Assembly (NCBI RefSeq): GCF_013215705.1
Contig: NZ_JABSQR010000044.1
Span: 1-33,858, forward strand
Length of the DNA: 33,858 nucleotides
DNA from: Moritella sp.
GTDB taxonomy: Bacteria > Pseudomonadota > Gammaproteobacteria > Enterobacterales > Moritellaceae
Direction of reading: 5' to 3'
Shown here piece after piece: positions 38-8,837 of this stretch. The notes beneath the pieces are model-generated. The model searched no databases, had not been told where the DNA came from, and saw only the letters and a program-made list of their open reading frames with translations. Numbering within the stretch: position 1 is the stretch's first letter; the number at the start of each line of letters is the position of its first letter. A program made the position numbers and the translations under genes.

Positions 38-112
38 TAACAACCCATCATTGCAACTATGTTGACATCGACCGATAGATTTAATGGAAAAGTTGAAAGA
101 TGAGAGTCAGTA

Positions 113-880
113 ATGGAGTATATTAAGCGCGGCGTAGAACCAACACTCCTTAAAGACAATAAAATAAAATGGACAAAATCTTGGGTCGATTTTTATGAAG
201 AAAAAAAAGATAAAGATGGGGGGTTAATCAAAGATAAAAAACCAAATGACTCACATTGGCTCAATGATAAAGTGCGGTTTGCTTTAATTTTAACATTTAA
301 AAACAACTGTGGATATTGCGGATGTTCTAGACCTACACCAAGGAGAGAAACGGATAGTAAAATTAGCCCTCGAGGCCATGTTGATCATTATAGAGCAAAA
401 GCAATACACCCTAGATTAACTTATGAGTGGACTAATTACATTTGGTCCTGTGAATCATGTAATACAGAGAAAGGTGAGTTTGATAATCCTGAATATCCAA
501 TACTAAATCCTTGTGATTTAAAAGATTGTAATCAATTAGAATTTATAATCGATACTGGAGAATACTGCTTAGCAAACAACCAAAAGCCTTATGACCTTCG
601 CTTTAAAAATACTGATATATCAACCATGCTTAATGCAAAAGAAATATCAGTTCAACGTCGTAATCGTGTTAAAACATTTAAGAGTTTCTTTAATACCATT
701 TCGACACTATTGAAAGTAGGCCAAAATAAATTATGTGAGCCACTAATAAATCAACACATTAGAAGTATTAAAGATGATTTAGAGGACCATAACTTCTATT
801 TTCTAATACAAAAAGAACAAAAATTGCTTCGGGAGAAGTACCCCGAAGTTACAAGACTTTTAGAGTGCAATGGTATTTAA
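113..880 (+). CDS. HNH endonuclease-like protein, possible defence nuclease
   Basis: A 255-residue soluble protein with a treble-clef HNH layout. A first zinc pair C66-x2-C69 (CGYC) is followed by the catalytic-type VDHYRAK segment at 90-96 (D91, H92), then a second pair C113-x2-C116 in WSCESCNTEKG at 111-121, where N117 fits the HNH asparagine. This arrangement resembles the TIGR02646/PtuB-like HNH proteins that accompany ATPases in anti-phage systems. The flanks (1-60 and 135-255) are charged and not recognised. The likely role is metal-dependent cleavage of nucleic acid in the cytoplasm; the target is unknown. It converges on the double-DUF262 gene with only 12 bases between the stop codons. 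DUF262 and HNH modules are classically fused in GmrSD type IV restriction enzymes, which suggests the two genes work together, but this is inference. Confidence 0.75.
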   Translation: MEYIKRGVEPTLLKDNKIKWTKSWVDFYEEKKDKDGGLIKDKKPNDSHWLNDKVRFALILTFKNNCGYCGCSRPTPRRETDSKISPRGHVDHYRAKAIHPRLTYEWTNYIWSCESCNTEKGEFDNPEYPILNPCDLKDCNQLEFIIDTGEYCLANNQKPYDLRFKNTDISTMLNAKEISVQRRNRVKTFKSFFNTISTLLKVGQNKLCEPLINQHIRSIKDDLEDHNFYFLIQKEQKLLREKYPEVTRLLECNGI

Positions 881-892
881 TAGGACTACAAA

Positions 893-3250
893 TCAAGCCC
901 ATTCAGACCAAAACTGTTCCACTAGGGCTTGAAATTTATTTTTCACTGTTTCATTTTCACTTATGTCTAACCTCTTGTTTATATCTATGAAATTTTTTAC
1001 TGACAAAAATATATCTTCTCTACAAGATTCTATTTTTTGAATATTTACTTCTGCTAGTAAAAGCCATAGCATATAGAACCCTCTTTGGTTTCTGGCCCTT
1101 GTTGTTAAACTGATAAGTTCATCAAACCTATCAGCCTTTTCCTTATTACCTATTTCAACACCAATAAGGTGAGACACCTTATTAATAAAATTTTCAACAT
1201 TATTAATACTAACAAGAGCTTTGTTATTTTTATCTTGATCGACTTCTACTGTATCTAACCAATAATCAATTTTAGGGTTTTCTACACGGAATGTAATTGG
1301 ATTTCCTGACGCCTGATATATCTGTATCGGCTCAAAAACACTAGTACACTCCGACTCAAAATCAACATAAGTTATTGATAACAAAAGTTCTTCTAACTTC
1401 ATTCGTTTGTCATCCATAATATAATAAAACCAGTGCCGATAATCATGCGCTAATTTTTTAATTTTTTTCATTACATCGGGAGCAGCATAGCTATTCCACA
1501 TCTCAAAGCTTGGATCTTTAATGTCGTATGATTTATCATTTAAACGAATAAATAAGTCAATCGGATCAAAATCGGGATTAGTATCTTCGTTGATATACAC
1601 AATACTTAGCTCAAAATCCCAGATTTTGTCCTGTAAAGCTTCATTAAGAGCTGAAAAATTATCTCCTCGATTCTCTCGTAAAATAGGTAATGTTTTCGCT
1701 AATTTAAAATTTTTATCTTTTTTAGAGTGCATGTCAGTTTTTGGCGTAACATCTTTTTCAAAAAGAATAGATTTAGCTTCTCCAATAAAACCTAGTATGC
1801 TTAGCAGTCTCTGCTGGCCGTCTACAACCTCGCAGATACCATCGTTACGCCTGTATATAAATATAGTAGGTAAAGGAATACCTAATAGTATACTTTCGAT
1901 TATCCCTGAAGCTTTTTTATTATTAATTACTTCTTGTCGTTGATAGGGAGGTCTTAATTGGTATTCATTATTAACCATTTTTAAAATAAGGTCTTCAACT
2001 GTTGTTGTTTCAGCTTCTTGCCTAGCCAGTCGCTGCTCTTTAAAATCGGAATCTTCATGAGTATTTTTCTTTCGGGAATTTCTTAAGTAGTCACTAAAGT
2101 TGATACCTGTTTTTAAATTAAAAAAGCTAGCTATTACTTTAAATCGTTCGGTGGTCGTTGATGAAAAACCTTTATCAGCACTGATAAATAAATTGATGTT
2201 TGATTTTATCTCTTTTGCTAATTCATCAATAAAGCTTGTAGTTAATATTGATTGTGACTCAATACCTTCATTTTCTACAACAGTTAAAGCCCAAAAAATG
2301 CATTGATATATTAACCATTCATTAACACCAATTTTTTCTTTCAATTGTTTTAAGGGGCTCATTTTATCTATTAATTTTTGAAGTTTTTCTTCTTGTAAAT
2401 CATTTAAACTATTTTCTGAATTATCACTTTCAATAAATTCTTTGAATAAATGCTCATTAACATCAGAACGCTCAGAAGTACTTGCATAAATATTAATAGG
2501 AAAATATGCAATTACAATTAAATCTCGCAACTTATTCATAGTTTTGTCTTGGCTACGATTTTCTGGTTTTATTTTTAAAAATAGATCGTTAAAATCATCA
2601 ACCCAATTATGTTCATTCTCAGAAATACTTCGTTTCATGAGGCTAGTAAAATTATCCATCTCATGACGAGCATTTTTTACTTCTACTTTTTTTAAAGGAG
2701 TAATACCCGTGTTATAGCGGCGAAATATTTCTTTGCTTATTTTATCTTCTAATCGTATTTGGGTGTCACTAACGTCATTTGGATTTTTACTTGAGAATTC
2801 AATGATTCTTAATGTGGTGTTATCAAATGCACGACGATATTTTTCATTTTTATCTGCTTTACCGTCACCATCGACTAGGTCTTCATACTTCTTACCGGAT
2901 AAGTTTTTTAGTTTACTTAAACCATTTTTTCGAAGGGAAAACACTCCTGCTTTAAATCGTTCTATCGTTTCATACCTTTGACGACCATCGATAACCTCTA
3001 AAGTTTTCTTATCGTGAGCATGAATAAATAAGATTATAGGTGGAATCTCAACACCCAATAATATACTTTCAATAAAGAAGGTGGCTTTTTCTTCATTCCA
3101 AACGTAATTACGTTGATATGGAGCCTCATAATCTATTTTTTTACGACGAGAAGTTGATAAGGTATCAATGGATTGCGAAGTGGAACGAATGTGGAGGTTT
3201 TCTGCCATCTCAGTTTTGAATTGCTTGTTTATTTCCCGATTATTCGCCAT
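893..3250 (-). CDS. Double-DUF262 protein (GmrS-like, two tandem domains)
   Basis: A 785-residue protein with two copies of the DUF262 (ParB/Srx-fold, GmrS-type) core. Copy one has PYQRNYVW at 44-51, the helix FFIESILLG at 58-66 and IDGRQR at 87-92. Copy two has PPYQRQ at 434-439, IIESILLG at 450-457 and VDGQQR at 476-481. Both keep the D-G-x-Q-R signature expected for nucleotide binding or hydrolysis. About 240 mostly helical residues separate them, and a helical tail of roughly 150 residues follows the second. I see no C-terminal DUF1524 (HNH) nuclease such as GmrD-type fusions carry, so cleavage may be supplied by the convergent HNH gene. The start at 3250 is the first ATG; its ribosome site is weak. 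By analogy to GmrSD it may recognise modified phage DNA, but no substrate can be read from sequence. Confidence 0.75.
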   Translation of the reverse strand: MANNREINKQFKTEMAENLHIRSTSQSIDTLSTSRRKKIDYEAPYQRNYVWNEEKATFFIESILLGVEIPPIILFIHAHDKKTLEVIDGRQRYETIERFKAGVFSLRKNGLSKLKNLSGKKYEDLVDGDGKADKNEKYRRAFDNTTLRIIEFSSKNPNDVSDTQIRLEDKISKEIFRRYNTGITPLKKVEVKNARHEMDNFTSLMKRSISENEHNWVDDFNDLFLKIKPENRSQDKTMNKLRDLIVIAYFPINIYASTSERSDVNEHLFKEFIESDNSENSLNDLQEEKLQKLIDKMSPLKQLKEKIGVNEWLIYQCIFWALTVVENEGIESQSILTTSFIDELAKEIKSNINLFISADKGFSSTTTERFKVIASFFNLKTGINFSDYLRNSRKKNTHEDSDFKEQRLARQEAETTTVEDLILKMVNNEYQLRPPYQRQEVINNKKASGIIESILLGIPLPTIFIYRRNDGICEVVDGQQRLLSILGFIGEAKSILFEKDVTPKTDMHSKKDKNFKLAKTLPILRENRGDNFSALNEALQDKIWDFELSIVYINEDTNPDFDPIDLFIRLNDKSYDIKDPSFEMWNSYAAPDVMKKIKKLAHDYRHWFYYIMDDKRMKLEELLLSITYVDFESECTSVFEPIQIYQASGNPITFRVENPKIDYWLDTVEVDQDKNNKALVSINNVENFINKVSHLIGVEIGNKEKADRFDELISLTTRARNQRGFYMLWLLLAEVNIQKIESCREDIFLSVKNFIDINKRLDISENETVKNKFQALVEQFWSEWA

Positions 3251-3721: not shown

Positions 3722-4282
3722 ATGGCAGAAGTACAAGCAGTAAAAGATCTGGATAAGGTAAAATTAATTAGTCATTTATTAGAGCGACGTTATAGCAAGC
3801 AGATGGCAGACGTGTGGAATATAGGTTTAAATTTAGCATTGAGGATATCTGATTTATTATCAGTTAAATTTAATGATATCCATGACGATAGATTGTTAAT
3901 TAAAGAATCAAAAACAGGCAAGCTCGCCAATATTCAACTTAATCAAAAAGCCTTAACCACAATTCAGCTGATACAAACTAAACATCCTTGTCATGTTTAT
4001 TTGTTTCAATCCTACCGTAATCAGCAAGCTATCAACAAAACCCCTAAACCACTTACTAGACGCGCTGTATCAGAAGCCTTTGCGATGATAGGTAAAGAAG
4101 TTAATATTGCGCTAGGGACACACTCGATGCGTAAAACGCGAGGATACCACCTTTATCAAAACACTAAAGATATTGCCCGTGTGATGAAAATGCTTCGCCA
4201 CTCATCTGAAGGTGTCACGCTGCGTTATATTGGTATTACCCAGGATGATGTTGATAAGGATTTTGTGGATTTAGAAATTTAG
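3722..4282 (+). CDS. Minimal tyrosine recombinase/integrase (catalytic domain only)
   Basis: A 186-residue protein that is essentially the catalytic domain of a tyrosine recombinase. The full set is visible: R41 (LALRISDLL), K64 (ESKTGK), H134-x2-R137 (THSMRK), H160 (LRHSSEG) and the nucleophile Y169 (TLRYIG). Typical phage integrases of 300-400 residues carry an N-terminal arm- and core-binding domain; here only about 15 residues precede the catalytic domain. The size recalls FimB/FimE-type recombinases, which invert or exchange short segments. An AGAGGA ribosome site lies 9 bases before the ATG. Nothing adjacent identifies its att site or substrate. It lies between a possible defence pair and an IS remnant, which fits an integrated or rearranging accessory region. 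All catalytic residues are present, so it may be active. Confidence 0.85.
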   Translation: MAEVQAVKDLDKVKLISHLLERRYSKQMADVWNIGLNLALRISDLLSVKFNDIHDDRLLIKESKTGKLANIQLNQKALTTIQLIQTKHPCHVYLFQSYRNQQAINKTPKPLTRRAVSEAFAMIGKEVNIALGTHSMRKTRGYHLYQNTKDIARVMKMLRHSSEGVTLRYIGITQDDVDKDFVDLEI

Positions 4283-4720: not shown

Positions 4721-5045
4721 ATGGGTAATTCGAAGAACAAAGTCACAAACTATCCAGAGTATACTCGTGCGTTAACTCAACGTGGTTCAATTACATTTTG
4801 GGTAGACGAATCTGCCATAGAGGCATGGACTTGCACTAAACACCACAGAAAGCGTGGTCGAGGATTTCAACTCTCTGATGTCGATATTGAAACTGCGTAA
4901 TGGTGAAAGGCGTGTTTTCGCTACCATTACGCTCGTTACAGGCTTTATCTATTCCGTTTTTTCTCTGATGAATGTGCCACTGCGTAGTCCCAATTATTCG
5001 AGCATAAGTAAACGAGCCAAAACAATTGGAACTGACTGCAATTAA
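4721..5045 (+). pseudogene. IS5-family (IS903-group) transposase, frameshifted 5' fragment
   Basis: From the ATG at 4721 the frame reads MGNSKNKVTNYPEYTRALTQ and continues through RGSITFWVDESAIEAW, the N-terminal signature of IS903-group DDE transposases. The frame then stops at GCGTAATGG. Restoring one base there gives ALMVKGVFSLPLRSLQ, and a second one-base shift near 4943 restores FIYSVFSLMNVPLRSP and the ISKRAK segment. Homology ends soon after, before the catalytic DDE residues. The piece covers roughly 105 of about 310 residues. Two frameshifts plus a 3' truncation make it non-functional. Confidence 0.85.
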
Positions 5046-8243: not shown

Positions 8244-8822
8244 CTACTTTTCTATGATACCAGCTACAAATTGCCACTCTATACGTTCTGAAGGGGTGTT
8301 ATTACATATTTGTAACGTCAGCGCACGCCATCGGTGAAGCGATGATGACGTTTGATCAGAGCGTTCACCCGCGGTAATACATAGATCGGAATTTCTTAGT
8401 GTAATACGGCCGTTAAGCCAGTTGAATAGTTGTAATGGCGCCGCTTGCAAAAAATTGGAATGCTCTCCGCAGTCTCTTGCCATTAGAGACGAACCAGGCA
8501 AAGCACGTGTATGAGGTGCGATCGCTGTAACGCATTTATCATATGCAGGTAAATATATTTGTCCGTTATTGAAAACCGACATAGCCTGATCTTTGTATAA
8601 TCCAGACTTACAATTATGAGCGATAAGCGGTAAATCCAGTCTTTCGTACGGACTAAAGCCGATTACATCGATGCAAAAACCATCGCTAGGACGGTCTAAA
8701 TTAGACTTTAACTTTATATTACCAACGGTGCCAGAGGCTGCTTCTTTCGCGGTGTCAGATTGTGCATAAGCGCTACTTGTCATAAGCACAGCAATTAAAG
8801 CTGTTATTACTGATTGTTTCAT
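8244..8822 (-). CDS. Secreted ricin-B-like beta-trefoil protein
   Basis: The protein has a Sec signal peptide (MKQSVITALIAVLMTSSAYA, cleavage probably after AYA). The mature part of about 170 residues is Cys-rich, with three repeats reading like a ricin-B beta-trefoil: FCIDV, KCVTA and LCITAG, each followed by a second Cys strand (AHNCK, ARDCG, LQICN). The last unit ends EWQF, like the QxW end of this fold. Such domains bind sugars or act as accessory parts of secreted toxins and hydrolases. There is no catalytic domain, so it may be a stand-alone lectin. I chose the ATG at 8822 because AGGGAT lies just upstream; an ATG at 8837 would add five residues before the signal peptide. Function unknown. 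Confidence 0.6.
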   Translation of the reverse strand: MKQSVITALIAVLMTSSAYAQSDTAKEAASGTVGNIKLKSNLDRPSDGFCIDVIGFSPYERLDLPLIAHNCKSGLYKDQAMSVFNNGQIYLPAYDKCVTAIAPHTRALPGSSLMARDCGEHSNFLQAAPLQLFNWLNGRITLRNSDLCITAGERSDQTSSSLHRWRALTLQICNNTPSERIEWQFVAGIIEK

Positions 8823-8837
8823 AATATCCCTATTCAT

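Follow-up and report, generated by a model that had tools for sequence, protein, structure and literature searches.

A double-DUF262 gene and a convergent PtuB-like HNH gene in Moritella sp.: the probable remainder of a three-gene anti-phage cassette

Results

Two convergent genes at the start of a Moritella contig

The DNA analyzed here, referred to as the window, is the whole 33,858-nucleotide stretch NZ_JABSQR010000044.1 of Moritella sp., which starts at base 1 of its own contig (C42). Close to this start lie a gene for a PtuB-like HNH nuclease (113..880, + strand, 255 amino acids (aa)) and a gene for a protein with two DUF262 domains (893..3250, − strand, 785 aa), termed DD in the following. 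Both reading frames are unbroken. As a preliminary description of this DNA had stated, the two convergent stop codons are separated by 12 base pairs (bp; 881..892). The catalytic stretch of the HNH protein (H92, N108, N117) is encoded at 386..463 on the + strand. DUF262 core 1 of DD (residues 38-195) occupies 2666..3139 and core 2 (about residues 417-600, bounds set by eye) 1451..2002, both on the − strand. The DGxQR motif previously reported for each core was found as DGRQR at residues 88-92 (2975-2989) and as DGQQR at residues 477-481 (1808-1822). Comparison with related loci revealed that these two genes travel jointly with a third gene for a PtuA-like ATPase, while the assembly of the window is without the ATPase gene and has the end of an insertion element in its place.

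Both DUF262 cores of DD keep their motifs

DD matched PF03235 in two stretches (E=3.2e-34) and the PADLOC model NsnA with E=2.8e-54; NsnA is presumably a Menshen gene, an assumption that a literature search did not confirm. Core 1 and core 2 are themselves homologues (28% identity, hhalign E=1.2e-21), and the two linkers gave no alignment to each other. In an alignment of 64 rows, QR, DGxQR and FxxxN were kept in both cores wherever the rows cover them. The motifs of core 1 were present in 59 or 60 of the 64 rows, the other four or five being gaps, with DGKQR in two rows, and those of core 2 in 64/64, with a single Y for F. Because these motifs are kept in both cores among 64 homologues, both look active. 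DUF1524 was not found in the DD or the HNH protein of the window at E<=1. The architecture given in the preliminary description, a DUF262 duplicated in one chain, no DUF1524 and a nuclease encoded in trans on a separate gene, was borne out.

The HNH protein is PtuB-like

The window HNH protein scored 18.2 bits against PF01844 (cut-off 21.4) and 33 bits against the NCBIfam PtuB and TIGR02646 models, below their cut-offs of 150 and 52. PADLOC PtuB models matched with a best E-value of 4.5e-23. A profile of the protein and its relatives (five sequences) was compared with the PDB, where the matches (best E=8e-4) were mostly PtuB/TIGR02646 chains of retron I-A and Septu; up to E=1, eight of the nine matches are named PtuB, TIGR02646 or retron HNH. 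H92, N108, N117 and four cysteines were invariant in all five aligned rows. In Septu Ec-B88, substitution of H75 and N91 is described to abolish immunity (PMC13096335), and the spacing of H92 and N108 in the window protein is the same as that of H75 and N91. In plasmid records, five matches to the window HNH were obtained (21-28% identity), each with an ATPase annotated under or beside it. Judged by its sequence, the window HNH is PtuB-like.

DD, HNH and a PtuA-like gene are linked in the clade of the window

On a quick tree of 64 rows, the closest DD clade comprised six rows with a Shimodaira-Hasegawa-like approximate likelihood ratio test (SH-aLRT) support of 100: the window, Glaciecola pallidula (L076) and the metagenome-assembled genomes (MAGs) of Enterovibrio (L074), two Methylococcales (L075, L077) and Methylovulum (L078). 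The HNH subfamily adjoins DD in 6/6 members, four times convergent and intact, once as a convergent remnant and once co-directional. The HNH profile gave more than 400 bits each for L074, L075, L076, L078 and the window, all five being members of the profile; among the remaining searched loci only L133 was matched (20.8 bits).

In L074, L075 and L076 the HNH gene is convergent with DD (gaps of −4, 3 and 12 bp) and comes after a gene of 600-787 aa that is encoded on the same strand as HNH. L078 has all three genes on one strand in the order DD, PtuA-like gene, HNH, neighboring genes overlapping by 1 bp in one case and lying 4 bp apart in the other. L077 retains about 14 codons of the HNH end, antisense and 24 bp past the DD stop; behind them lies a transposase fragment that weakly matched rve_3 and rve_2. 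This genome, which is a MAG, is likewise without the PtuA subtype discussed here (best match 67.5 bits). In L076 and L078 the three-gene unit sits between genes that by eye look like housekeeping genes.

The preliminary description took the HNH and the double-DUF262 genes to form a possible joint system, an idea that would fall if the two almost never co-occurred. In the clade of the window they are linked in every member, in one merely through a remnant, and this recurrence rules out a chance pairing. It had further proposed that antisense overlap of the 3' ends may balance the two genes. Such overlap is not essential, as L078 has all genes on one strand and the convergent gaps vary (−4, 3, 12, 12 and 24 bp); an obligate antisense design is ruled out by the co-directional L078.

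Pairwise identities of the HNH proteins followed those of DD (r=0.97, 10 pairs from 5 loci), as did those of the PtuA-like proteins (r=0.92, 6 pairs from 4 loci). The Glaciecola DD is 59-60% identical to the Methylococcales DDs, compared with 43% to those of the window and Enterovibrio. The Glaciecola set thus clusters with those of the Methylococcales, as would be expected from a joint transfer of the three genes.

An insertion-element end lies where the ATPase gene would be expected in the window

A PtuA-like gene stands directly before the HNH gene in 4/4 relatives with an intact HNH. In these four, the neighboring gene matched PADLOC PtuA with best E-values of 8.5e-44 to 5.7e-43, and in the PDB the protein matched PtuA of retron I-A and Septu (best 5e-28). 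Walker A (G[LV]NGAGKTT) and IIIIDEID are conserved in 4/4 proteins. Their N-terminal part gave a weak helix-turn-helix (HTH) match, carries leucine-rich repeats in L075, is shorter in L074 and is nearly absent in L078.

In the window, the region upstream of HNH is cut off by the end of an insertion element at the contig start (1..74, + strand; our label IS3-type is taken from the protein tail). Bases 1-77/80 are repeated at the end of contig C14 (100%) and near the end of C4 (98%), and a diverged copy over bases 1-75 occurs in C22 (83%). The copies diverge past the same bases, at about base 74. An open reading frame (ORF) ending there in the C4 copy matched rve_3 weakly (E=6e-4, below cut-off). 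Two queries for a PtuA-like homologue in the whole assembly of the window gave no credible match, the best being 1.3e-5, in the leucine-rich part of the query, and 0.006. Between the element and HNH, a possible 3' remnant of a ptuA-like gene (75..113, + strand) consists of 12 codons followed by a TAA, which overlaps with the start codon of HNH (TAATG). In the comparison with the four PtuA C-termini, this peptide was equalled by 531/20000 random 12-mers of the window and by 3609/20000 of its own shuffles, so that the 12 codons could at most weakly suggest the end of ptuA. The simplest reading is that ptuA of the window was deleted beside the insertion element, and we predict that the window copy does not function as a PtuAB system.

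Few trios were found in the genome samples, and distant HNH relatives lack a nearby DD

Among 394 genomes of the order, 12 contained an HNH match at E<=1e-10. Of these, the matches with the highest scores (428 and 408 bits) were those of the window and Glaciecola genomes, the latter identified by matching coordinates; both are linked to DD. In the other ten (44-84 bits), a PtuA-like gene lies immediately upstream of HNH on its strand. No DD was found in their flanks of about 1.1-1.5 kb (in L162 125 bp on one side), and the ten genomes contained no full-length DD at E<=1e-10; frames of the length of a single DUF262 protein (360-391 aa) were obtained in two of them. In ten genomes of the same genus, DD gave no match at E<=1e-3.

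A search of 369 genomes of the class for further trios gave one match, the window's own genome. In a phylum sample, the PtuA profile matched 0/398, with no known positive contained in the sample. The DD profile gave 3/345 in the Glaciecola family, which are the known Glaciecola locus, an AbiC-linked locus and a locus cut by a contig end. With the single DD sequence of the window as query, genome and viral contigs gave no matches, and among 67 plasmid records none matched DD over 80% of its length. A phage-borne system was also considered; when viral contigs were scanned with the profiles of DD, HNH and PtuA, no locus combining DD with PtuAB emerged (a PtuA-profile match, L164, was left aside), and the viral loci L021 and L022 carry other DD versions.

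Relatives of DD are combined with different putative effectors

To describe the wider DD family, a profile of the window DD and a homologue from a Priestia plasmid was used, and 62 genome loci were fetched out of 90 pattern matches and sorted by what the DD protein carries or adjoins. An HNH-like C-terminal tail was present in 16 and a downstream gene of the PIN_8 family in 10, while 23 had a long tail and a downstream SMC-type ATPase. The remainder comprised five loci with PtuA/PtuB (one a remnant), three with an upstream gene of 506-507 aa and five that were other or cut off (L084, L109, L126, L133, L134). Fused HNH tails were assigned by a motif script and confirmed with Pfam in L104 and in the plasmid homologue L003, which carries a fused HNH and lies outside the 62. 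An AbiC-like gene overlaps the DD start in L021 (viral) and L176, both likewise outside the 62.

The PIN_8-family gene lies directly downstream of DD in L081, L086, L088, L089, L092, L094, L101, L106, L116 and L125; the assignment is based on one Pfam-tested member (E=2e-53). DD with a long C-terminal tail is followed at once by the SMC-type ATPase in L087, L090, L093 and 20 further loci, 22/23 of which are Bacteroidota by their tree labels. In the one pair tested, the tail gave 15.9 bits with TaqI_C, below cut-off, and 1.4e-6 with PADLOC Specificity_I. This combination is probably a distinct system with no obvious nuclease. A protein of 459-507 residues is encoded just upstream of DD in L082, L115 and L122 and, as a related version, in L022 (viral, outside the 62), and gave no credible Pfam match. 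In L177 the DD gene is cut by the contig end and lies downstream of tandem recombinase-like genes and by an ssb-like gene (names by eye); this DD looks like mobile-element cargo.

Six effector labels, set by hand, were placed on the 64-row tree and required 11 changes compared with 35.8 for shuffled labels; this tree was built quickly, contains several flagged long branches and omits L127 and L133, which were too short. A separate alignment comprised 38 DD proteins, the window included. Most likely, the DD family is a sensor with exchangeable effectors. At least six kinds of candidate effector accompany it: the fused HNH, the PIN gene, the specificity-like tail with an SMC-type ATPase, PtuAB, the AbiC-like protein and the protein of about 460-507 residues.

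Neighboring features of the window

A tyrosine recombinase of 186 residues (3722-4282, Phage_integrase E=8e-18) is encoded 471 bp upstream of DD in divergent orientation and may have imported the cassette. Further on, a broken transposase remnant with frame breaks was found at 4721-5040 (DDE_Tnp_1_5, E=3.7e-7 for 4721-4897). The protein encoded at 8244-8837 weakly matched ricin-B-lectin (E=2e-4, below cut-off); its start looks signal-like by eye.

Discussion

The gene pair of the window is probably what has survived of an anti-phage cassette of three genes, composed of DD, a Septu-type PtuA ATPase and a PtuB HNH nuclease, as judged from the gene comparisons. In such a cassette, DD would be the sensor or licensing module. 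It may bind nucleotides via its two DGxQR pockets and would probably recognize a feature of invader DNA; on the model of GmrSD, BrxU and SspE, this could be base modification. In BrxU and SspE, DUF262 is described to bind and hydrolyze NTPs, and in GmrSD, BrxU and SspE it is linked to the recognition of modified DNA (PMC10952713). DD would then control PtuB through PtuA, licensing PtuAB by activation or restraint, and PtuB might cut DNA or a tRNA. The place of DD would be the one held by the reverse transcriptase (RT) and the multicopy single-stranded DNA (msDNA) in retron I-A, and elsewhere in the DD family other effectors would replace PtuAB. We propose more tentatively, as an idea somewhat short of probable, that the tandem-DUF262 family, which is widespread, serves as an infection sensor of general use with at least six effector kinds attached to it, and that PtuAB is a portable effector licensed by either a retron or DD.

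The preliminary description had interpreted the pair as a possible split GmrSD-like defence system. In this reading, DD would find modified DNA and recruit HNH as the DNA-cutting subunit, and PtuA would be dispensable. The window retains exactly DD and HNH intact, and the HNH-like C-terminal tail in 16/62 homologues indicates that a fusion of DD and HNH in one chain does exist. However, the fused HNH that was tested with Pfam is a short PF01844 domain, unlike the 255-aa PtuB-like protein of the window, and DUF1524 is missing. The HNH protein resembles PtuB, and its gene stands behind a PtuA-like gene in all four relatives with an intact HNH as well as in the ten distant HNH relatives. Since ptuA is missing at the element end, yet present in the relatives, the window pair would be two-thirds of a three-gene unit, and we regard a split GmrSD as quite unlikely. 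The fused tails also raised the idea that HNH was split from a DD-HNH fusion by an inversion, which was set aside as the window HNH is PtuB-like. A similarly low probability is assigned to two independent defence systems, a Septu and a DUF262 gene, having nothing but their island in common. Defence genes generally cluster, and genes for an Eco29kI-type restriction enzyme and a cytosine methylase lie close by in L078; against this stand the 6/6 linkage, the gaps of only −4 to 24 bp, the signs of co-transfer and, by eye, no other obvious effector gene for DD at these loci.

A toxin-antitoxin relationship would be a variant of the three-gene cassette, and its probability is not exclusive of it. 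PtuAB would be toxic and DD would restrain it for as long as no infection disturbs DD. RT and msDNA have this restraining function in retron-Eco7, where PtuAB is described to deplete tRNA-Tyr, to be toxic solely as a pair and to be neutralized by RT and msDNA (PMC11555353). DD is intact where PtuAB is broken, in the window and in L077, as an antitoxin might stay, and by analogy with retron-Eco7 PtuB would do no harm on its own. Decay was seen in just two cases, however, which is too few, and an activator role of DD fits equally, and we consider this variant rather doubtful.

Several points weigh against the three-gene cassette itself. The complete trio was found in four loci only, three of them MAG contigs and all in one clade; the r values stem from few, non-independent pairs, and the five HNH sequences themselves went into the HNH profile. 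Support for a ptuA remnant in the window is weak, and ptuA is possibly present in the strain but unassembled. A partnership of DD with PtuA and PtuB is suggested by gene linkage, and the sensing role of DD and its ligand by analogy. Moreover, DD could act alone, as PtuAB is damaged while DD is intact in 2/6 loci.

If the three-gene cassette holds, PtuAB is tied to a protein sensor and not to a retron, and single-gene tests could separate sensing from killing in this system of three genes. The trigger of retron-Eco7, which uses PtuAB, is termed unknown in PMC11555353. With one sensor and many effectors, a trigger found for one system could be tried across the others.

The preliminary description regarded two DUF262 domains with no DUF1524 plus a PtuB-like HNH as an architecture not known to have been described, and the literature searched, which did not extend to subscription papers and preprints, likewise contained no description of a tandem-DUF262 protein with PtuAB. 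Tandem DUF262 is absent from the section on added domains of a 2015 survey of GmrSD architectures (PMC4619093), and the parts consulted of PMC10853773 and PMC12839542 hold nothing on it. DD shares with GmrSD, BrxU and SspE a DUF262 with QR, DGQQR and FxxxN (motifs as given in PMC12137116), but has two cores, no DUF1524, an HNH of another kind in trans and, in relatives, an ATPase. GrwAB (PMC12137116) and TgvAB (PMC11411939) also contain two DUF262 units and their two proteins are described to be needed together; there the units are in two proteins, one with DUF1524, whereas DD is one chain without it. With Septu and PtuAB of retron I-A (retron-Eco7/Ec78), the trio shares an SMC-type ATPase gene followed by a TIGR02646-like HNH gene, with Walker A/B and H-N-N kept. 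It differs in the adjacent, usually convergent double-DUF262 gene and in the PtuA-like N-terminus with its weak HTH match and, in L075, leucine-rich repeats; unlike in Septu, the window HNH scores under the NCBIfam cut-offs and has no credible PtuA gene upstream or elsewhere in the assembly. The nearest described system is ptuXYZ (PMC11980606), which likewise joins a DUF262 protein without DUF1524 to a PtuA-like ATPase (here in relatives) and a nuclease as third component, while in the trio DUF262 is doubled, the third gene is HNH/PtuB in place of PIN'-YoeB, and the gene order differs.

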